NCBI GenBank assembly: GCA_001692895.1
Contig: KV748247.1
Location: forward strand, 496,001-560,000
Source of the DNA: Cenococcum geophilum 1.58
Lineage: Eukaryota; Ascomycota; Dothideomycetes; Gloniales; Gloniaceae
Direction: 5' to 3'
Length of the DNA: 64,000 bases
Shown here: piece by piece, positions 15,470-54,058 of the stretch
Layout of the letters: each line of letters opens with the position of its first letter
How positions within the stretch are numbered: position 1 is the first letter of the stretch
Position numbers and translations under genes: made by a program
The notes under the pieces: generated by a model
The model's input: the letters and a program-made list of their open reading frames with translations, nothing else
Databases searched by the model: none
What the model was told of the DNA's origin: nothing

Positions 15470-16011
15470 GTTAAAGCTTCTTTTATACAACGTCCTTCTA
15501 TATTATAAATATATCCTAGACCATTTTATTAACTATAGAATAAGTTATTGTAATATAACCCTTAACCTTTAAATTAAGGACCTAATAGACCGCGTAGAAC
15601 TCTAGCTATTTAATAATTTAAAATGGCAGCCTTTATACGGTTATTAATAAAACAAGTGCTATAGTAATAGCTTTTTAGTTAAGTGCAGATTAAAAGACAA
15701 GCGCATTAATATTATTTGCCTACTCTATATTGCGGAGCTGCATATAGAGATTATAAAGTTAAGTACCCGTTTTTGTATAAATAGGGCCCTCTTACTTTTT
15801 AAAACGGATATTATGCTTAGACCTTAGGTGATATCGAAAATTTATAGTAGACTTTAAGTAATATACTATCTTTATATAATGCTTACAGTACATAAGCCTT
15901 ATTCTCTAGTAGTGTGTAGCCTTATCTTTGTATAGTATGCTTATAGCTTAAAAGTCTTCTTTTATTAGGAGTTTAATAACTCCTCTATATTAAGGGAGTT
16001 TAATATAGGTA
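15470..16011. other. Unresolved AT-rich degenerate DNA
   Basis: No recognisable element. The + strand from about 15570 has a long trace interrupted mainly by TAA/TAG (for example LVKCRLKDKRINIICLLYIA), which suggests an unidentified coding relic. Confidence 0.3.
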
Positions 16012-16013
16012 TA

Positions 16014-16322
16014 TCCCTTAACCCGCTGGCGTGCATAAAGCAGGTAGTCCGTGCGGAACACTAGAATTAAAACTACGCGTGTAGCCTATATAGATTTAAT
16101 CAATGCTTAATTAACATGATCCGTTCGCTATATTCAGTTAATTCTTTACTAGTAAGATTATAGATAAGCTAATAGAGTGGATAAATAAGTACGCAGAGCT
16201 GCACCCGTTGAATGATGCAGATAGGCCCGCCCATATTTCTAATCACGACGATTTTAATGCATTAATCTGATTGGCTAGTTCCTTATCGATAACGTGTGCA
16301 CGAATTTCAGCGGGTTAAGGGA
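16014..16322 (+). mobile_element. piggyBac-derived miniature element, 309 bp
   Basis: The ends are perfect inverted repeats TCCCTTAACCCGCTG / CAGCGGGTTAAGGGA, flanked by TA (16012-16013, 16323-16324). A TTAA lies inside each end, so a piggyBac-style TTAA duplication is the alternative reading. The + strand inside reads HDPFAIFS and FFTSKIIDKLIEWINKYAEL, which I recognise as the N-terminal part of DDE_Tnp_1_7 (piggyBac) transposases. A second, longer copy at 33818-34314 shares both ends and the same downstream deletion point. This copy lacks about 190 bp more. Confidence 0.8.
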
Positions 16323-16417
16323 TAAAGTAATATACCCGCGTTAGAAGCCATTATTATAATAACTATATATACAATATTACAGTATAAGATTTTTTTAAGG
16401 GGTGCTAAGAATATCCG

Positions 16418-16916
16418 TGCCAATATTACAAATACGCCAATATTTGCCAATAACGTATTCGGTAAGCAAGTGGCCACTGCAAGCATGTAGCCACCTCACC
16501 AAAAAACCAAAAAATCGATCTTTAGTATCTCAACAACAACTCAATAATAAATTCTAAAAATTTAGATTTAGACTTTCATATACGCTTTGCAACTCCTATT
16601 AAAGTTGCATAGTAATTAGTTCAGTAGTTTTTAAGATATAGAGATTTTGCTTTATTTTGGCCCCAAAATCATAATACTATAAAAACTACTAGACTAATTA
16701 CTATGCAACTTTAATAGGAGCTGCAGAGTGTATATAAAAGTCTAAATATAAATTATTACAATTTATTATTTAGTTGTTGTTGAGATATTAAGGATCGATT
16801 TTGTGGGTTCTTGGTGAGTTTTTGGAGGTGGCCACATGCTTGCAGTGGCCACTTGCTTACCGAATACATTACGCGCCAATATTGATTAGTAACAATATTG
16901 ATCAATATTATTGGCA
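16418..16916. mobile_element. Foldback MITE (about 499 bp) with long inverted arms
   Basis: Two arms of roughly 200 bp are reverse complements around a centre near 16650-16690. Examples are GTATTCGGTAAGCAAGTGG near 16460 against its complement near 16850, and the AACTCCTATTAAAGTTGCAT block near 16590 against 16710. The outer ends are TGCCAATA...TATTGGCA. No coding capacity. The right end sits inside the zinc-finger gene and supplies its present final codons. No clear target duplication was found. Confidence 0.8.
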
Positions 16917-18274
16917 GTATTGATATTGAAAACCACGCTGCCTGGAGCATTTCCTGCATTTTGCATGGCTGCACACATGACCTGGACCGTCCAGATGAAA
17001 GTATCTATTGCATTTACCGCACCTTCGCTTCTGGCAGCTTTGCTGATGGGTCTGAATATCTGTTGCTGAAATTTCGGACTTTCCACACGCTCCACAATAA
17101 TAGAAGTAGCAAAACTCAACGTGACGGTTCATTTCAGCGCTCTTCACAAGTTTCCCATAACCCTTACATTTCCGGTGCTCTTGACAGGTGAGTATATGGG
17201 CAATGAAATCATTCAATGGAATTTCCGGCAGTGAGTGCATTTGGCATATGCACATATTCTGTGATGTTCTGTAAGATCCAAGATATTGTGGTCGCCACAT
17301 CCGTAACAGACGCAAGCCTGACAATCGGCGTAATGCTTTTCATATTCTCCTTCAGGAATTCGTGTCTTCCGACATTTGCTGCATACTTTGAACGGACAGG
17401 TGCGTTTGTGTTCTTTCAAATCCGTGACAACCAATACGCTAAAGCATTTCCAGCAGGTCCAAGACTTGCAATTGGAGCGATGTGCAGCAACATCCAGGAT
17501 TTGCAATTTACAATGGTTGCATTTTTTGAACGGGCAGCGTTTGTGATGAGAATCCAAGTCTGTGATATGCTGCAACTTGTTGCATTTCCAGCATACTTTG
17601 AATGCAAGTTCGCAGGTTTGTGAATGTGCTTCGCTCTCTGCCACGAGCAGACGTGATTTTCGACATGTATTGCAATAGAAGAATGTCTTTTTACACTCAA
17701 TGATATGCCTACTCTTGAGCTCTCTTGGAAACGAGGAGCCGCACTCACGGCAGTAAATTGGCTTTCGACGTGGTGCCCGTGAAAAGGTGATGTCCATTGG
17801 GAGTTTTTGGCATGTACTAAGATGGTCTTCGATTGACTGTGCTTTTATGCCCACTATTTTTTGGCAATAGTGACATTGACCCCTTTTCCCTTTGAAATTT
17901 GGATCGGTAAAGATGTTGAAATATGAGCGAAGCTCTGCAGCTTGGGCCTGTCGTGACGGGCTCTTCTTGTAGTGTGGCTTTTTGTCTTTTCCGTCTTGAC
18001 GACATTGAGGCAGTCTCAGCGCGAGTGGCCTGGGAAAAGAGGTTCCTTCGGGAATAGAATCACAGATCGAAAGATGGTGTTCTATGGATTCTGGCGTTTT
18101 GACCATTGTGTCGTTACAATATTGACATTGAGCTCTTGGTTGCGAGAAGCTGCGATCAGTGAAGATGGTGAAATGTGATTCGAATTCGGTCTTTTGAGCT
18201 GGTGTTAATCTCTTCTTCTTTTGCTTCCATCCTCTCTGCTTTGTGCTTTAGCTGCTCTGGTTCGCCCTATACAT
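16917..18274 (-). pseudogene. Tandem C2HC zinc-finger gene, broken
   Basis: The minus strand encodes at least 13 consecutive fingers of the form C-x2-C-x(10-13)-H-x(3-4)-C, about 22 residues each (for example CWKCNKLQHITDLDSHHKRC). The spacing recalls TRAF-like or C2HC fingers. The first two are larger, each preceded by a repeated F-x-I-F-T-D block, and look like a duplicated BED-like module. The frame opens at the ATG at 18272-18274 and meets a TAA at codon 9 (18248-18250, CAA>TAA by RIP type). An alternative later start is the ATG at 18106. A one-base frameshift near 17230 splits finger 10. Fingers 11-13 continue in the other frame, finger 11 with one Cys changed to Tyr. The 3' end is cut by the foldback MITE. 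Composition is unlike the flanks, so this is probably a remnant of a host gene or an unrecognised element gene. Function unknown; nucleic-acid or protein binding is only inferred. Confidence 0.8.
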
Positions 18275-42520: not shown

Positions 42521-42795
42521 CGCGCTAGCTAGGCTCTCACTTGGACGCCATATGAGGTCGTTACGCTGTAGTAGATAGGTCGACTGTCGAATAGTTGTGT
42601 ATCTGGGTTAAAGGAGGTTAGGTTTCGTACGGTCGGGTTTATACGGTCAGGTTCGGTTCGGTTTGATCGATATTTAATACAATTGATGTTCGATCATCTG
42701 TCCGTTTGGTAATTATAAGTATAAGAGCGGTACCTGGAAGAAGCTTAAAACACTTACAAAGGTAGAAGAAGTACTGACTTCTTAAACGAGGTAGT

Positions 42796-42925
42796 TTACC
42801 TCAGAAGCTCAGACCAAGAAATCGATTGCGGATATTGGAATATCCGCACCGTCCGCTAAGCTGATTTAGGACGGTAATCGTTTTCTTAGTCTGAGGGACT
42901 TTGGCGAGATTTGTAGGAAAACCTA
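42796..42925 (+). repeat. Left terminal inverted repeat, cloverleaf-forming
   Basis: The outer stem is 42808-42826 paired with 42877-42895 (starting CTCAGAC against GTCTGAG, 17 of 19 positions). Inside are two hairpins: a perfect 9-bp stem at 42827-42848 (TGCGGATAT, loop TGGA, ATATCCGCA) and CCGTCC/GGACGG at 42849-42874. The conserved GGCGAGATTTGT follows at 42903. Confidence 0.8.
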
Positions 42926-43129
42926 AACACCGTTTATATAAGAAGACCTTATTAACTTTAACGAAATTGATCTACCCTCCCACAATACCTATTAATATAA
43001 AAATTACACTAAATTATAGAGAAAAGCCTACTCTATAAGTTATAAGATCTTTAGCTCCTTATACACGCGCGACGTTAAGAGGAATTTGTTGCTGTAGAGG
43101 CTCTAATTCCACCTCTGCACCACTAAGCC

Positions 43130-45743
43130 ACGCAGTAAACACTAACGCTGAACGCCTACGCCGCTAGCCCTCTCTATAACTAGTGGATATTCCACCTACT
43201 AGTCAGATAAAGATATTAAAAAAGAGAAGGTTAATATTGTTAGGGACCTTCTATATTAATAGGGCTGGTCTTTTTATAGGCTGGTCTTTAAGTTCTTAGA
43301 AAGCGAGAACGGGCATAAAGGTAATAGAAAGAAGAAGAAAGTAGGGGACCTGCTTATTACTTTACTAGAGGATGGGGAAGTATAAGAAAAACTTATTAAC
43401 GGGGTTAATATTTATACGACGCTAGTAACCTATACTATCCGCTATATCCGGAAAGAGCTCTGCCAACTATAATTATAACACGGCCCCTTTAACACATAGA
43501 CTCCAGATATAGAGTTTTAGGATATTAATCTTAAGAATGCAGCCAAGTTTATTTAGCAGCATAGTCCGCTGCTGTTTTAGCTTATTAAGGGGATATCTAC
43601 ACTAAATAGAGAGGAACGTAGTTAAGATTTATATAGCGGATATATAGTTATAGTTGCTTCTATATTCCTCCTAGGGTTCGCCTAGAACTCCGTAAACGAT
43701 TTTACCCATCTACTTAGTCTATATCTTTAGGCGCTTAGTATAAAGCGCTATATACTATCTTTCCTATATGGCCTTAGTCTAATTAAGAGTTATATAACTT
43801 TTAATGCTAAAAAGCTTGGGCTAGCTAAACGTTCTAAGAAAGGTCCTATTAATTCTACTAGTACTTCTAGTGTTAATAACCTTTAAGAAACTAATTACGT
43901 CTTTATCTATTTATAATAATGTCTGCATTATCTATAATAACTTTAACTATTGCTAAAAGACTTAATATTAGGTTATTAGTAAGATTAGTAAGTTTAATTC
44001 GCACACTATGGGAAAGATCTTACGCGGAGTATATATGCCTAAAGGGGGCCTTAAGTAGTTAATATTAAATAACACCCGTTAACTTAAGCTAGATAAGGTT
44101 ATTAATGCAGCTAGAAATAAGTTTAATAACCTCTAGAAGCAGATATCTATAAGTTTTATTATAGACGCTATCTAATACGCGTATCCTACTACGGTTAATG
44201 GTATATTTAACTCTAACGCGGATATTAAATATCCACGTATACTAGCAGTTAATATTCTCCCTTATAGAAGGACAGTGTATATAACTCTAGGACCTATTCT
44301 AGACAGCGAGGCTTCTATTAACGGCAATTATCGTATAATAGAGAATATCTTTCTAAACCAACTACAGTATAATCGCGAAACCGCTTTTAATAACCAGCTA
44401 TTCCTAGTATACGGAGATTAGAAGACCGCAAAGCTTATCTAATTATATAAAGAGGGGTAGGTTAAGGCGGAAGGTGCGTATAATAGCTATAAGTAGGTGT
44501 TGCCTATTCCAGGGCTATGGTATATACGATTAAACTTCCTATATATAGTTGTGCGTACGTTCTATAGGGGTAAGTAAGCCGCGTAGTAGTTTTTAGCGCT
44601 CTATACCTATATAAATCACCTAGGTCGGCGTAATATTCCTAGAAAAAAGGCCCTATTTTATTATATAGAAGAGCTAATCCTCTAAAGCTTTAACGCTTGT
44701 GTTATTATATTATTCCTACTCTATATCCACAATAAGTATAATATTAAGGCAGATAGTAAGGCTAAGCAATATATATAAAACCTATCTCCACAGCAATTTC
44801 TGGAGCATATTAAGGATATCCGCATAGTAGCTTTTTTAAAAGATATATACCGTAATGCAAATCAGCGTATATCTAATTATTTAGAGCTACCTGCTAACGC
44901 ACGTTAGCTAGTAGTGACGTCGTCCTCTATAGGTATATTAAGCTCCGCCGCTAATAACCATAATATAGAGTTCTTTAATTATATCCGGTTTCTATATGTT
45001 ATTAATACTTATAAGCTTCTAAAATACGCCATTAAGTATATAGATATCGGACTACTAAAGCGTATAATCTCCTACCTTTGCTTATACTTTACTAGAAGCT
45101 TATTAAAGAACTATATATATAATATACTAATCCTATAGCAACTAGTTAGAACAAGCGCTTATAATCTAGTACTTTAACGGGCTATCTTTACTAATAGTTT
45201 AGTTAACTTTTAAGGGCGGCTAGATAGCTTCTTTAAAACGAATCGCCTTAATAAACTGCTAAATCTTTAACTTAAGGAGTTGCTCTAGACGTGTGGGAAT
45301 TCGATGTTTGGTATAGACGAGCTATTTAAATAGAGTGTTCTTATAATAAGTTACACTAGTACGCTCCGCGATATTTTTAAGTGTATATTTGGTAAACGTA
45401 TAAACAGTAAATATATAACTAAGTCTCTAGCGCTAGATATCCGCTATCTTATAAATTAAATTAAGAAGGATTTAATTGTACAATATAGGTGGCGCTCGGC
45501 GGATTTTAAGGCTCCTTTAATTCTATAGCGCGGATATAAGAAACTTATAAAGGACGGCGTAAATACATTTAACGCCTTCCTATTAACTATAGCCGGTTTA
45601 CTATTTAATCCTCTTATATATAGCTTTGGTGATATTAACAAGAATATAGAGGTACTAGAAGAAGCTGCTGAATATATTTATATAGTTTATTATCCTAATA
45701 TTACACCTATACCTCTGCTAATATATATAATAGTTAGTATATA
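43130..45743 (+). pseudogene. DUF6589-like protein, RIP-degraded
   Basis: A + frame interrupted only by TAA/TAG runs for about 870 codons. It begins with SDKDIKKEKVNIVRDLLY near 43.2 kb and LESENGHKGNRKKKK near 43.3 kb. Later come a GDxKT site at 44.42 kb, LPIPGLWYIRLNFLYIVV near 44.53 kb and HLGRRNIPRKKALFYY near 44.63 kb. The end is LEEAAEYIYIVYY before a TAA at 45741. The GDQ-T-x-R and PG-x-W-H-x-x-x-x-F-L arrangement is what I associate with DUF6589, a fungal and animal domain of unknown biochemical role often found in repeat-rich settings. I infer it may be the mobility protein of this element, but no catalytic residues can be named. The start is not resolved. Confidence 0.62.
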
Positions 45744-45755
45744 ACTTGCTTAATA

Positions 45756-45993
45756 AATGCTAAGAGTAATAGTAATTTATTGTTTTAATTACGGATATAC
45801 TTTTATTATGCGTTAGCGTATACAGGACGTTAGGTTTAAGGCACCTGCTATTCTTTAACTTGGATTAAAGCGGCTCTTATAGGGCGGCATTACTGATTTT
45901 AATATATGGATGTCTTATATTAGCGGTTTACTATATAACCCTTATAAGGACGGATTTAATAAGGCTATAAATAATATACTAGAGGACTTCTAG
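45756..45993 (+). pseudogene. Duplicated C-terminal fragment of the DUF6589-like gene
   Basis: The + strand reads DVRFKAPAIL, a stop, LGLKRLL, then ISGLLYNPYKDGFNKAINNI and a TAG at 45991. It parallels DFKAPLIL, a stop, RGYKKLIKDG and IAGLLFNPLIY at 45495-45625. Hence it is a paralogous C-terminal piece, either a partial duplication or the end of a second gene copy. Confidence 0.6.
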
Positions 45994-46329
45994 ATGCTTG
46001 GGCTTATAGTATGTTTCTATCTTAATATGTTGATCGGGTTCTTTTTGTTGATATTAACTTTAGCCAGCGTATAATTTTCTTAGTGCGTAGTATATAACGT
46101 AGTAGTAGGCTATTTTATAGTGTAGATATATAAATATCTTTATCTTAACTTATATGAATATTGTTATCTTAGCTTATACGGATATTATAATATTAATTAA
46201 GTATATCTATTGAATATAAGGTAGAGACTTAATTTTTATAAATATAGTAGCAAAAAGGTATAAGCTACTATTTTACTACCGTAAACTAGTAACAACGGCC
46301 AACCCGCAGTAATAGCTAACTTATATCTA

Positions 46330-47901
46330 CCTATATTTGATATCCGGTAGCCCAGTATTATATATAAATATAATAACACCACGCCTTAGAAACGTAAGCT
46401 TATCCTTTATCTTATTTAGAGAATCTTTAAACTTATTAAACCGGCGATCTATAGCTTAAACATCTTTCGCTATATTAGTTACCCGTTTACGAACTATATT
46501 AACGCGTATAGAAATAGCAATTACTAAATACACCCTAATAGACCCGGTGCCAGCAGAAGTAGTAGTAATAATAGCAGCACCTAGCGTGCTAGTAATTGCT
46601 AAAAGGGTTAGAGGAGCGGCAGTAGAGCGGGTGCCCCTACGGCTGTGCGTACTGCTATAAGTAGGAGTCTTAATAGGAGGGAAGGTCTTAGTGGGGGGAG
46701 GCGTAATAGCGCGGGCGGGGATAGTACGAGAACAAAGCTATACGGATATTAGTAATATTTATATTATTAAGATGCGGATAGCATACCTTTTTAATAGGTG
46801 TTTTAGCCGGACTACTAGTAGAAGCTAATTATGTATATTTTCTGCCCTAAGGTATAACTAGCTCTGGATTTAGTAAACTTTTTTATACGCGTGTTAGCTG
46901 ACAGAATAATAGTATACTATTAGCACGTACCTTTCCGCACAGCCTATTACCTACACAATATCTTAAGCACGCGCCCCTAAAATGTGGCCTAGAGCCCTTC
47001 TTATAAACGCGATATTTATAGCTATACTTCTTGCATAGAGCATATAGCGGATTGCGTAGCTTACTAAAGCTACCCTTAATATTCTAGACGTGTGTTAATA
47101 TCCGCTAGCGACTTTCCTTTATATTATCCTAAATGCCAGCTTTTAGAGTGTACTATTTATTCGCTAACGGTACTTAGATAGGAAGGCGCTTATTTATATT
47201 AGGAGTACTACGGAGATTATAAGGGCTGCTAAGATTTTGAGGGCTGTGGAGATTATAAGGGCTACGGAGATTGCGAGAGTTAGCGTTATTAAGGTCTTTA
47301 TCTTTGTTGCTATCTAAAGATTCGCTATCTAAAGAAACATTATATATAGTGTTTGGGTCACTATAAGAGGTAAATTAGTAGATAAGACACTAAAACAGTA
47401 TAACTAATATATACGATTTAATAGCTATCTTAAGCTTTATATTTATATTAGCAGCCTTTTTAGCCCACTTTTTAAGAAAAGAAGATAAATAAGCCTTATT
47501 AAGCCTCTTTTTAAAAGCATTAGGCGGCGGCAGTAGAGAGGCGGATAGTAAAGTAGTGGATGGTAAAGTAGCCTATAGTAAAGATGTAGGCAGCGGAAAG
47601 GTATCCAGTAAAAAGGTAAGCGGGTTTTTAGTGGATTTTGCTCTATTTTTATTGTTGTCATCTACTAAATCCTGTAAAGAGCGCCTTGGTATATATTTCC
47701 TAAAATTATATTAGCTATAGGTAAAATTTAGTATTAGAAAGCTTACTCTTTAGGAATAAAGCCTAAAGGCTTAGTAAGAGCAGCTATAGCGTGCTTAATA
47801 GCATTAAACTCCTTATTGTTAACGTCGCGTATATCGAGTTCCTTAACCGCCTAGTTGCTATTATTTGTATTAATATTATTTAGAGGTGTAAATAAAGGCA
47901 T
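46330..47901 (-). pseudogene. Unknown gene, copy 1 of a tandem pair
   Basis: Minus-strand exon 1 starts at the ATG at 47899-47901 (MPLFTPLNN) and carries VKELDIRDVNN and ALTKPLGFIPK. A 47-nt intron at 47700-47746 (GTAAGC, branch-like CTAAT, TTTTAG) joins it to exon 2 (RKYIPRRSLQDLVDDNN, then KNPLT). Downstream are a cysteine/aromatic segment (LYALCKKYSYKYRVYKKGSR, CLRYCVGNRLCGKV), a Ser/Thr-rich low-complexity stretch and a predicted coiled coil (FNKFKDSLNKIKDKL). Several stops are TAA/TAG. It aligns along its length with copy 2 at roughly half identity, including the intron position, so the duplication is old and predates most of the decay. No family recognised. Confidence 0.65.
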
Positions 47902-48299
47902 CGTAGATTGTAGTATTCTAAGGGACAGTATATAAAATAATAATAATAAAGTTTGCGGTGCGGTGCTATAAGGTAAAAGGTTAGTGGAGGAAGAAGAGGT
48001 ACGGAGGTTAATTAAGGTAAATATCCATGCTGCTAATTTTATTAAATTAGCTCACTAACAAATAATTACTGCTATAGTAACTTACCTTAGTAAATATTAA
48101 CGGTGCGTGGATATAAATATTTTTATCTTAGCTTATGCGGATATCATTATTTTAGCTTATATAGATATTATAATATTAATTAAGGATATCTATTAAATAT
48201 AAGGCAGAGACTTAATTCCTACGTATATAGTAGTAGAGAGGTAAGAGTTACTATTTTATTACTCTAAACCTATAATAATAGCCAACCTGCAGTAACAGC

Positions 48300-49796
48300 T
48301 AACCTATATCGACTTAAGTTCTATATCTGGTGACTAAGCGTTATATATAAGTATAATAATACCACGCCTTATAAACGCAAGCTTATCCTTTATCTTACTT
48401 AGAGAACCTTTAAGCTTACTTAACCGGTAGTCTATAGCCTAAACATTTTTTACTACCTTAGCCACCTATTTATAAACTATATTAACGTATACGGAAATAG
48501 CAATTGCTAAATATACCCTAACATTTTCTGTACTAGCAGGAGTAATAGTACTAGAAGCAGTACTAGGCGTGCTAGGAATTAGTAAAAGAGTAAAAGGAGT
48601 AGTAATAGAGTGGGTGCCTTTACGGCTATGTATATTACTACAAGTAGGAGTTTTAGGGGGAGGGGAGGTCTCTAGAGGGGGGATGGTGCGGGTATAAAGC
48701 TATGCGGATATTATACCTTCTTAGTAGGCGTTTTAGCTAGACTACTAGCAGAAGCTAATTGTGTACGTTTTTTACTCTAAGGTATAACCGGCTCTAATAT
48801 TAACAAACTATCCTATATATGTGTTAGCTAACAGGATGGTAGTATACTATTAGTATGTACCTTTTCGCACGACCTGCCACTTAAGCGATATCTTAAGCAT
48901 ATACCTTTAAAATAAGGCCTAGAGTTCTGCTTATAAACGCAACATTTATAGTCTTGCTTAACGCATAGAGCGTATAGTAAATCGCGCAGCATACTAGAGT
49001 TACTCTTAATATTCTAGACGTGGGTATATATCCGCTAATAAGCTTCTTTTATATTTTCCTAAGAACCAGCTTTTAGGGTGTACTATTTATTTACTAACGG
49101 CACTTAAATTGAAAGGCGCTCGTTTATGTTAATATCTAATATTATAGCTTAGGTTATGCGGAGCTTATAAAGGCTACGGAGATTATAAGAGGATAAAGGA
49201 GAGCTTTTGGGAGAGTTGGCGTTATTAAGATTACTCCTTTTATCGTTATTTAAAATCTCTAACATTTCTATTGAGTTACTATAAGAGGTAAATTAATAGA
49301 TAAGATATTAAAATAGTATAGCTAATATATACGATATAAAGGCTATCTTATACTTAACATTTTGCGCAGCAATTCTATTAGCTTGCCTCTTAAGAGAAGC
49401 AGAAGTATAACAATAATTAAACTTTTTAGAGGCAGTAGGCGGAGAAATAAGCGGCTTAAAGGTATGTGGCAAAGAGGTAGGCGGCAAAGAGGTAGGTAGT
49501 AAAGAAGTAAGCGGATTTCTAGCGGATTTCGTAATAGTATTATTATAGTGCTCTGCTATATCCGACAAAGAGTACTTTAGTATATATTTCCTAAAATTAT
49601 ATTAGCTATAGGTATAATTTAATATTAGAAAGCTTACCCTTTAGGTAGAAACCCTAAAGGATTAATAAAAGAAAGAGCGTTCTTAAAAGCGTCCTTAATT
49701 ATTTTATCATTAACGTCGCGTATATTAAGTTCCTTAACTAAATAGCTATTAGACGTATTTAGAAGTATAAATAAAGGTACTATAGATAGTAGCATG
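48300..49796 (-). pseudogene. Unknown gene, copy 2 of a tandem pair
   Basis: Starts near the ATG at 49794-49796 (MLLSIVPLF); the codon matching the copy 1 start is GTA. Exon 1 has VKELNIRDVND and NALSFINPLGFLPK. The intron at 49591-49637 is again 47 nt with GTAAGC, CTAAT and TTTTAG. Exon 2 reads RKYILKYSLSDIAEHYNN and KSARNPLTS, a Pro/Ser/Thr-rich stretch, then LYALCVKQDYKCCVYKQNSR and CLRYRLSGRSCEKV, and a C-terminal coiled coil (LSKLKGSLSKIKDKLAFIRR). The clustered Cys and basic residues could bind metal or nucleic acid, which is inference only. It has fewer stops than copy 1. Confidence 0.65.
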
Positions 49797-50089
49797 CTAA
49801 TAGATAGTAGATAAAACAACAACGGTAAAATTTGCGGTGCGGTGCTGTAAGGTAGAAGGTTAGTAGAAAAAGAGGTGCGGAGGTTAATTAAAGGTGAATA
49901 TCCACGCTGCCGATTTTATTAAATTAGCTCGCTAATAAATAATAGCCGCTATAACTTACCGTAGTAAATATTAACTACCTTATATACGCTTATTTGTAAT
50001 GCGCAAATCCTTTACTATTAAGTTGCTACTAATTAAACTAAGTAGGCGCTGTCTAGTTAACTTGTAAAGTAATATTAATATAGAATTAC

Positions 50090-53000
50090 TGCTTAGCTAA
50101 GGTGCTAGAGAAGGGTTATAAGCGGATATTAGGTTTACTTAGTAAGCGGATTTCTTACTTTTAAAGTGGGTAGATACGTTCTTTTATTTTTTTCTTACTG
50201 CGAGGTAGACCTAATAGCTGCGTTATATCTAAAACCGAGGGCGGAGATTAAGTACTAGGCTATAGGTTCTAAGCTGCGCGTAGCTTAGAGAGCGGAGATC
50301 AAATATTAGGCTGTAAACTCTAAGCCGTATCTAATTTAGAAGGCGGGGATTAAGCATTAGTACGCGAATTCTGAACTGCGCCTAGTTTAAAGGGCGGAGA
50401 TTAAGTATTAGCCTATAAACTCTAGGCCTTAAAGTTTCCTAGAAGTAGAGATTTAGTATTATAACTTAAATCCTAAGCCTTGGGGTTTTCTAGGAGCGGA
50501 GATCTAATACTATATTATAAATTCTAAATTTCCGGATTTCCTACTACCTAGAAACTAGTGCTATACTATAAATCTTAAACCTTGGGATTTTTTGTGATTA
50601 GAGATCTAGTGCTATATTATAAATATTAAACCTTAGGCTTATCTAAAAGTTAAAACTTAGTGTTATACTATAAGCTCTAATACTTAGACTGCCCTAAGGA
50701 TTTAGATTCGATACTGCGCTATAGGCTTTAATATCTGGATTGCTCTAAGGGCTAAATATATAGCTGTTAAAATAACTACAATAGAGCGGCATGCGTAGTT
50801 TAGGACCAGTTCGCCTATAAGTCTTAGGTTAATGTAAGCTGAGATATTTAAGACTTAGTAATATTCATTTACGAGCTAGATGCTAATAATAGCGATAAGG
50901 GCGGTAATACTTTAGTTTATAGCGGTTAATTAAAACTAGCACTCTTTATAGTTAATGCACTAACGGGTCCCCTTTAACCTACTAATGGTAGAGGCGTTTA
51001 TAATAAGCTTCTAAATACAGTAACACGTCTACTAGATTACGACGCAGCCTATAAGACACTGGTACTAGAGTATTACGTTTCTTCCTTATAAGTAAAGCAA
51101 ATAAGCGCGTTTACTTTATCTCCTAGGAAGCTATAATCCTATTTAGGTAATATCCGCTTAAGGCCCTTATAAGTTAGCGGAGGTTAGATATAGAGTATAC
51201 GGATTTAATTATCGGATATAATATAACTAGAAATTAGACTCTAAACTATATCCTAGTATATTATATTAAGCTATCCTTTAATCTACTTCTTAACACTTAT
51301 AAATAGATCCTTTAAGTACTTGCTCTTCGCAATATTCTTAATATATAGTGCGATAATATTATACTCCTTATAAGCCTATAACGAATTATCGTAATTAAAG
51401 CAATAGCGTAGACCTCTAGATAACGGACTCGTCTTCTTATATAGCTTAAGTAGAATATTACGTAGATATCTAGTAGCTTTATTCGCGAGCTTATATAATA
51501 TATCTAGAAGTACCGCCCGTTTCTCTATATTAGTCTTTACCCTCTTCTATTTTTCTATATACTTAATTAGTAGGGCTAATAATATTATATTTTTATTAAG
51601 TATTTAATCCTCCTCCTCCCGGGCAGATACCTATAAAATAATATTACTGTTAATTATAATAAATAAAGCTAGATTACTAGCGAAATCCGCTACCCTATCC
51701 TTTTATATTGCCATTCTAGTAGTAATAAAGTTATGGCTGAGTTAGGTAGATAGAGGGGCTATAGGTTTTTAAGACTTTTGCTTTAGCGGTATAATATTTA
51801 TAAGAGCGTCCTTATACTAGTCTTTAATAAGGATAATTATATATCTGGTAATACTATTACGTTAGGCGGCCCGTTTAAATCGCTGCAGTATTATATTTAG
51901 GCTTTTATTAGGATAATATCTGGAATATCCGCACTATAGGCTAGGGCGTCCGACGTAATAAGAATGCGGGTAGGTAAGTCTTCTGTGCAGAAATTTTAAT
52001 ACTCCCTACTCTTATTATGTTTGGATAATATCGCATAATAACTCCGTACTGCTATTTTAGCCTACTTTATAGTATAGCCCTTAGTTATAAGCTATAAATG
52101 GATTGTGTTTATACACCTACGGATATAATTTTTGGCATAAAGAAAGATAATTGTCTTAGAAATTAATTCGGGACTTAAAACCTTTCGTCCCTTTAGCTGT
52201 GTAGTACCTCCTACCGGATTTTAGATCTGCCTAACTGGTTAATAAATAGAGGTAGCGGATATTTAACTAGAAGATGCGGATATCCTACTAAACGCTATGG
52301 GCGTTTAGCTAGATAATGCGGATATTTTACTAAACCCTGCGGATATCTAGCTAAGGGTCGCGGGTGTATAATCCTCCTCTACTACTACCTCCTTAAATGC
52401 CTCTTTAATAACAAAGAATAGTGCCTTATAATTATTCTTATCCCTCCTTTTAATATAGCCCCTAATAATAGATAGGTTAGGCTAATTAATATTTATTTAT
52501 TTAAGATCCGTTATACTCTAATAAAACCCCACTAGCTTTATTACCTTTATATATATCTCCTTATTAAGTGTTGCAGTATATATAAACCACAACACTATTA
52601 GACTAAGCAGTGATTAGACCTTAAAGAGCTATATATAATAGGGCCGGAAGCTCTTACCCTAGTTAGTAACTAGATAATACTTATTAATTATAACTAAAAA
52701 TATATATAAGCGAAAAGCAGGCTAAGTAAGGATATAGTGGAACCGTTTACTTAATAGTAACTCTAGTAATACTAGAATATGCGTAAGCCAACCCGCCTTA
52801 ATATGTTTTAGAATATCTGTATGTGCTTTTATTACCTTTATATATATAAATATAGGATTTACTCCTAGGATGGCCCGTATCTTTAACAGCTACTCCTCTC
52901 TAATTATGTTTAAAGGTAATATAATAATAGTAATAGAAGCTTAAATTAGTAATAGAATCGCCTACATTATTATACTCTTACCCTATAATGTCTTCGCCGC

Positions 53001-53560
53001 TAGGAACAAGTCCCTCCGCCTATATATTACCCGTCTTAACACCTTAATTTAACTAGGTCGTCCGCTGTACGGATATAAAAGCTTAATAGCTCTATCTATT
53101 ACGCTTAACCATTTATCCTTACTTGCCTCCCGTAAGGCTAGAAGCTCGTCTTACACGTTTTATAACTACCTCTCTACTAGGGATGTAAGATCCTCCCATA
53201 TATAATTATCTAGCTCCTACGAGCTCTATAAGGCCTGCTAGCGTTTTTGTTTAACTATAGGCTTCCAACCCTAACGTCTAGTGGTTTTCTTTAAAGCTAT
53301 AGTAGGTTTTTTATGCGGATATAACGCCTAGTAGTAGTAGAGGCACTTTAGGCTAAGGGAGGATATTTTTAAGGAAGGACCCAACTATAGCGCCTACTAG
53401 GTATTGTAATAACTTTAAGTAGTAGATATCTATATATCTATATAGTTTTATTAATATTAGCAGACTATTTAATAAGATATAATACGTGCTTAGGCTTTTA
53501 ATAACGCGTTTTTTGACTTTAATGAAATTAATATTAGGACTAAGCAATAGCCGTATTATA
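50090..53560 (-). pseudogene. RecQ-like DNA helicase, RIP-degraded
   Basis: The minus strand from about 53.25 kb reads DELLALREASKDKWLSVIDR and LLYPYSGRPS. The Walker A equivalent is AAKTL, a stop, GKS (52974-52996), then ILPLNIIREE. The Walker B/DEAH equivalent is VIINKYYLVTN (52671-52700, from IDEAHLV), followed by GKSFRPYY and a W-F-x-x-T-A-T-L motif III block near 52.56 kb. The C-terminal half includes a long trace at 51.6-51.2 kb (KYIEK, RYLRNILLKLYKKTSPLSRG) and ends in the 17-residue repeats at 50235-50760. Such RecQ-type helicases unwind DNA 3'-5' and are common in fungal repeats and subtelomeres. Frequent TAA/TAG make it inactive. The extreme N-terminus is uncertain. Confidence 0.7.
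50235..50760 (-). repeat. 51-bp repeat (17 residues), about 10 copies, coding
   Basis: Tandem units of about 51 bp encode on the minus strand a 17-residue motif such as SLQPNI, a stop, SPLSKLRAA. The unit is kept in frame over at least ten copies, which argues for selection on a protein before decay. It forms the C-terminal tail of the helicase relic. Confidence 0.75.
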
Positions 53561-53689
53561 AAATTTATACTATTTAGAAGCCCTAAGTCTTAAAAATAAT
53601 GTATGGACTTTTGGTAATAATAACGCGTTATATAAATAAATGAATTAAATATCCGCAATCTCCGTTTTATGGATTTTGCTTAGGATTTT

Positions 53690-53793
53690 AACAAATCTCG
53701 CCAAACCCTCTTAGACGTGATTTTGCAATTCGGAAGACGGCGTAGATTATTCCGATGCTAGCTAAAAAATCGCGTCTAAGCTCGCTGAGGTAA
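53690..53793 (-). repeat. Right terminal inverted repeat, hairpin-forming
   Basis: Stem 53710-53724 pairs with 53766-53780 at 14 of 15 positions (CTTAGACG against CGTCTAAG). An inner stem is TCGGAA (53730-53735) with TTCCGA (53750-53755). The terminal CTGAGGTAA mirrors the left end. Confidence 0.8.
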
Positions 53794-53876
53794 TAAGGTA
53801 GTTAGTGGATTAGTTGCTTAGTAAGCGCTAATTATATAGATTAGATATAGTATAGTAGGCAGGCCGGGCTTATAAC

Positions 53877-54058
53877 TGTAAGCTTTATAGTGTATAGGAA
53901 TTGAATAAGTAACTTAATTGTAAATCTATGGAAATTAAGTAGTATAAATATATAAAAGTAAACCAAGTCGGTAAGCGAGTTAAGGGCTAGGCAACTAAAA
54001 TAGGGTAGTACGCTAGTGAGATAAATAACGTTTTGATATAGTACCATAGTTAGTTATA
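53877..54058 (-). repeat. TRIM-like element 5' LTR
   Basis: Copy of 41165-41347. It begins TGTAAGCTTTATAG on the + strand, next to the primer site GGGCTTATAAC (53866-53876). Confidence 0.75.

Follow-up and report, generated by a model that had tools for sequence, protein, structure and literature searches.

Academ transposons are described as carrying a RecQ helicase (PMC3627910), and AcademH elements, reported from Ascomycota and described as low-copy (PMC10799480), have target duplications of 9 or 10 bp (PMC10045372). Here, we analysed a 64,000-nucleotide stretch of Cenococcum geophilum 1.58 contig KV748247.1 (C72:496001-560000 of assembly G000; hereafter the window), which contains an 11-kb mobile element at 42796-53793, bounded by short inverted ends and flanked by a 9-bp target duplication. 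Its interior is occupied by four gene relics, one on the plus and three on the minus strand as an initial annotation had recognized, namely a DUF6589 gene, two tandem cysteine-rich paralogs and a RecQ-like helicase. The likely explanation is a DNA transposon of the autonomous cut-and-paste kind, present here as a copy degraded by repeat-induced point mutation (RIP), with a mode of action like that of AcademH and probable membership in that group. A transposase, here a proposed one, combined with a helicase (RecQ in Academ by PMC3627910) is common to these families and the window element; the comparison covered gene content and duplication length. The initial annotation knew of no family already described that combines these genes; that none has been described is probably wrong, because a RecQ helicase and 9- or 10-bp duplications are ascribed to Academ and AcademH in the descriptions compared; families bearing such paralogs were not searched. 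New here are the proposal of DUF6589 as a transposase, based on a predicted fold, a tandem paralog pair with a putative Zn2Cys6-like cysteine pattern, and the enrichment of an octamer, GCGGATAT, in the element. Paralogs and octamer are unmentioned in the Academ and AcademH descriptions compared, and the 197 left-end motifs of this genome differ from the low copy number given for AcademH. The element is composed as follows.

42787-42795, unstranded: left target-site duplication CGAGGTAGT (flank comparison; empty sites)
42796-42920, plus strand: left end with 9-bp perfect terminal inverted repeat (TIR) TTACCTCAG (alignment of both ends; single-stranded DNA fold)
43221-43838, plus strand: DUF6589 N-terminal part, broken (resembles the N-termini of P0014, P0018, P0029 and P0041)
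43882-45648, plus strand: DUF6589 core, proposed DDE transposase, broken (PF20231, E 4.5e-34; P0001 and P0002 matches; predicted fold)
45805-46023, plus strand: partial second copy of the DUF6589 C-terminus, P0002 residues 543-615 (protein match to window)
46128-48101, minus strand: paralog unit 2, with intron-like stretch 47700-47746 and cysteine-rich stretch 46937-47044 (copy comparison)
48111-49975, minus strand: paralog unit 1, with intron-like stretch 49591-49637 and cysteine-rich stretch 48867-48974 (copy comparison)
49974-53291, minus strand: broken RecQ-like helicase, changing frame near 51915, whose C-terminal tail is long and repetitive (tblastn of P0121 and P0123; PDB RecQ family)
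53679-53793, minus strand: right end with TIR CTGAGGTAA and subterminal hairpin (end alignment; DNA fold)
53794-53802, unstranded: right target-site duplication TAAGGTAGT (flank comparison)

The span of 42787-53802 given by the initial annotation is correct with the duplications included, and the element itself covers only 42796-53793. Its paired inverted ends and the 9-bp duplication were confirmed: the two window flanks are identical at 7/9 positions, both mismatches being transitions. Beyond the perfect 9-bp tip, the left and right ends are imperfectly similar to about position +120, including the common TTTGGCGAGATTTG. Folded as single-stranded DNA, the left subterminal hairpin (about 42808 to 42895), which contains the inverted pair GCGGATATTGGAATATCCGC, gave a z-score of -5.74 with 0/200 shuffles as good, and the right hairpin gave -2.41 with 3/200. 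At up to one mismatch, the 20-mer of this inverted pair occurred 197 times in the genome, against 0 for the reversed control.

Copies were searched for in the whole assembly (177,193,698 bases, 162 contigs), where the first look returned 358 candidates for the left end and 346 for the right, the best 40 of each being scored. A second full copy lies on contig C96; it is 11,055 bp long, 90% identical throughout and has CGCGGTGCC on both sides, which is a perfect 9-bp duplication. Among 27 copies, the flanking 9-mers agreed at 9/9 positions in 18, at 8/9 in 6, at 7/9 in 2 and at 6/9 in 1, which is above chance, as 702 mismatched left/right pairs reached 6 positions in 4 cases and never 7. This count omits C27a (10-bp match), C48 (abnormal right end) and a 17-kb pair on C55 (incompletely fetched), as well as the long C59, C27b, C25, C41, C64 and C35, each with one end outside the fetched stretch. 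Among the 12 long candidates besides the C96 copy, agreement was 9/9 in two and 8/9 in three, with a 10-bp match in one and one end outside the fetched stretch in six; read by eye, the C27a flanks matched at 10/10 positions. These lengths correspond to the 9 or 10 bp of AcademH as described. At the C48 copy (L085/L086), the right end lacks its last 40 bases and an inverted right end comes next, an arrangement resembling two elements tail to tail.

The host site (42600-42795 and 53803-53990) belongs to a dispersed repeat, of which 38 other copies were scored at 80-88% identity. When the window flanks were joined, they matched uninterrupted across the junction at 38 places among the best 40 of 753 candidates, the remaining two rows being the window's own flanks. 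The element therefore interrupts a dispersed repeat, and the insertion site is unoccupied in the other copies scored. The ends move as a pair with 9-bp, once 10-bp, duplications, and the gene set recurs as a unit. The C96 copy, with the same interior between paired ends, the 197 left-end motifs and the empty sites, all from the same assembly, bear out the earlier view of a self-contained mobile element.

DUF6589 is a Pfam family of unknown function. The matched stretch of the window core contains 13 TAG and 12 TAA stops, and the N-terminal part, which lies in another frame than the core, gave E-values of 1e-6 to 7e-9 in a 1.1-kb search space (tblastn 43437-43838, alignment from 43221), compared with a best E of 0.15 in the control region. 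The predicted model of a DUF6589 relative resembles DDE transposases (P element, Hermes, ISCth4, RAG1 and Transib), and the closest solved folds are those of the P element and hAT (Hermes), similar over 266-287 residues at 8-10% sequence identity. Because of this transposase-like predicted fold, DUF6589 is the likely mobility gene, as the initial annotation had offered as one option, and very probably a transposase. It would bind the element ends, make a staggered cut in the target and insert the element, while the RecQ helicase would help to open or repair DNA at the ends and the two paralogs would act as accessory DNA-binding proteins that possibly recognize the CGGATAT motif scattered through the element. 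If true, the transposase identity would assign a directly testable function to the 129 DUF6589 proteins found in one search, and host gene models bearing the domain would be flagged as transposon-derived. DUF6589 was not found in IMG/VR contigs, nor was its name found in a literature search.

In the PDB, the window helicase relic matched RECQ5 and WRN only (20/20 rows, E 0.005-0.043). The best RecQ match of the C96 relic was 2e-5, with RecQ-family names in 24/26 rows, the other two being an 'ATP-dependent DNA helicase' and an unrelated entry at 0.41. The unbroken relative P0121, which the window relic matches, reached a RecQ E-value of 3.1e-21 with RecQ-family names in 34/38 rows (the others being three ATP-dependent DNA helicases and one RNA helicase), and it matched DEAD and Helicase_C above the Pfam cut-off. 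Pfam gave no match for three window helicase frames, which is attributed to RIP damage since the unbroken relative matches helicase families. Judged by these matches, the helicase is RecQ-like, as first annotated, and shares the type reported for Academ. Subtelomeric fungal RecQ genes are likewise described as repeated and AT-rich (PMC4522978); unlike them, the window gene sits inside a TIR element. No stop-free helicase row was present among 60 and 42 listed genome rows. Besides the window, 11/11 helicase loci and 11/11 paralog loci fetched were collinear with the element, over at least 1.1 and 2.6 kb, respectively; some are interrupted or shortened, and two helicase loci end 40 and 78 bases before the element tip.

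The tandem paralog units, about 1.9 kb each, are 73% identical to each other and contain a 47-bp intron-like GTAAGC...GCTAAT...TAG stretch at the equivalent position. Of the 'spliced paralog pair' in the initial annotation, the tandem paralogs and the intron-like stretches were seen, and splicing remains a prediction. Across copies, their middle part follows the pattern C-X2-C-X6-C-X14-C-X2-C-X6-C, and for every position one or more copies have Cys; at the first, this holds for the C48 locus only (seen as c48 and L057), all others having Tyr, which is the change that RIP would make from Cys. This pattern suggests that the paralogs are Zn2Cys6-like; neither PF00172 nor any other Pfam family backing Zn2Cys6 was found in them, and unit 2 gave a weak coiled-coil match (PF09763, E 0.013) below the cut-off. 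GAL4-type clusters bind CGG triplets, and because CGG is the triplet read by Zn2Cys6-type proteins, the paralogs are proposed as readers of the octamer, which is distributed as follows.

42828-53656, unstranded: 20 dispersed GCGGATAT sites (motif count in window copy)
First ten starts: 42828, 42840, 43636, 44218, 44816, 45437, 45530, 47098, 48137, 48704
Last ten starts: 49028, 50122, 51150, 51925, 52255, 52276, 52318, 52339, 53315, 53649

The C96 and C48 copies contain 24 and 17 sites, whereas simulated sequences gave a mean of 0.5 (maximum 3) under a first-order and 3.5 (maximum 9) under a third-order Markov model (200 each). At the other fetched loci, which are related copies and not independent samples, the density was 2.14/kb in element-like DNA versus 0.14/kb outside, or 1.88 versus 0.15/kb, about 13-fold, with overlaps counted once. 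The excess may be passive, that is, a product of coding bias, tandem duplication or RIP leftover, and this is a serious possibility: four of the 20 sites lie within one short tandem repeat, some fall in the duplicated paralogs, and the outside-family comparison DNA was taken without a check of its RIP level. Weighing against it, the sites occur on both strands and in several reading frames, only 3 were found in the 53 kb of mostly RIPed window DNA around the element, and GCGGATAT ranks first among 1,680 octamers of the same composition (20 versus a mean of 0.25). Furthermore, the three copies together have 31 sites, of which 7 are unchanged in all three, and at 29/31 any differences between copies are C>T or G>A only.

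A more speculative and rather doubtful idea is self-recognition, in which the paired Zn2Cys6-like proteins would bind these roughly thirty sites, including the left-end inverted pair, and thereby mark, activate or shield the element DNA. By analogy, this would be a fungal VANDAL/VANC counterpart on an Academ-type transposon with a DUF6589 transposase. VANDAL elements likewise have an element-specific short motif repeated along their length, but there the sites are described as non-coding and binding by the VANC anti-silencing proteins has been shown (PMC5735166), while the sites here also lie within genes and are candidate binding sites identified by motif enrichment. The motif array and the candidate CGG-type proteins make it possible to test concretely whether sequence-specific self-recognition is encoded by transposons of fungi.

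It is improbable that DUF6589 is a passenger or a domesticated DDE relic while another gene moves the element, or that an unrelated element elsewhere mobilizes the ends. This idea gains some ground from 20 short pairs of 1.3-6.3 kb, picked by eye from the two top-40 end lists where both ends were listed, which have only the ends in common with the 11-kb element. They align over its first 313-406 bp and, in 19/20, its last 390-470 bp (L078 has two shorter right-end pieces), none matches any of the four element genes, and the middles of 19/20 have zero GCGGATAT sites. Ends without these genes, which the initial annotation held to count against the element, thus exist in form; since 9-bp duplications also flank the short pairs, these seem to be non-autonomous relatives and not counter-evidence. 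The short middles (L063-L082) measure 0.46-1.4 kb in 17/20, have 52-56% GC in 16/20 and are unlike the 11-kb element; many pairs align to one another through them (first 60 rows), and six interior frames of L071 gave only Pfam matches below the cut-off (best PF20416, E 4.1e-05).

The linkage of DUF6589 to RecQ bears on the same question. With the best 72 of 383 DUF6589, 53 of 708 helicase and 40 of 49 RecQ-piece candidates scored, pairing was counted over all 73 DUF6589 rows, all 40 RecQ-piece rows and the first 47 of 60 helicase rows, within 15 kb for the 11-kb types, 12 kb for a compact type and 12 kb for other arrangements. A RecQ row lies downstream on the opposite strand, tail to tail, at 44/73 DUF6589 rows (7 of the 44 stop-free): 31 have a helicase of the 11-kb types and 13 another RecQ piece, which is 2.6-3.1 kb from DUF6589 in 12 cases and 8.9 kb in one. 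In 5/73, a helicase row occurs in another arrangement, and 29/73 are without a tail-to-tail helicase among the matches listed, which would suit a passenger; further partners may be missing, because only part of the candidates was scored. Conversely, starting from the 53 listed helicase rows above 900 bases, a DUF6589 row lies tail to tail at up to 20 kb for 32. The compact-type piece was read from the first 80 bases of contig C43; their translation PYRGHTEQLEALRVLIFERRDLMLVA is 13/26 identical to P0121 at the start of the DEAD domain region (E 4e-7), and the gap seems too short for two paralogs besides the helicase. This recurrence with RecQ where the paralogs seem to lack room speaks against a passenger role, as do the stop-free state of 8/73 DUF6589 rows (in four, a contig start truncates the match) and the fact that DUF6589 is the sole one of the four genes with a transposase-like match.

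The 80-base piece has eight identical copies, of which seven are no more than 4.2 kb from one end of their contig (C9, C41, C42, C43, C70, C74 and C149). On six of these seven contigs, a DUF6589 match free of stops lies at a distance of 2.6 kb, and in four cases this match is cut by the contig start. Such copies may be telomeric, or recent identical repeats that broke the assembly; as a TTAGGG array had 0 matches in the assembly, they cannot be called telomeric.

Slightly less probable still than a passenger role for DUF6589 is a Mutator-like element (MULE) that acquired the RecQ and DUF6589 genes. Its 9-bp duplications are a MULE signature, and Mutator elements carry a MULE transposase domain. 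However, the window DUF6589 frame and the unbroken relatives P0001, P0014 and P0018 match PF20231 only (Pfam, E up to 1 for the relatives), P element and hAT are nearest among the solved folds, and RecQ with 9- or 10-bp duplications is ascribed to Academ and AcademH in the sources compared. KolobokH duplicates TTAA, while the duplications here are varied 9-mers. P elements, to which the predicted fold is similar, have 8-bp target duplications. The same fold similarity holds for hAT, but the duplication usual for hAT and KDZ is 8 bp (PMC12730594), and in the window and 20 short copies the flanks match at k=9 and are out of register at k=8. An accidental pile of unrelated inserts, which the repeat-rich region (strong RIP-type composition across most of the window; 67 tandem-repeat rows) might suggest, is refuted for practical purposes, in agreement with the initial annotation, by the second full copy with its own perfect duplication, the collinear loci and the uninterrupted host repeats.

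Elsewhere, Rfam gave 0 matches and NCBIfam no match on two window frames. Two overlapping Cys/His-rich open reading frames on the minus strand (17213-18106 and 16908-17324), possibly a zinc-finger host gene, sit in about the sole 2-kb bin of the window with a negative RIP index (16001-18000).
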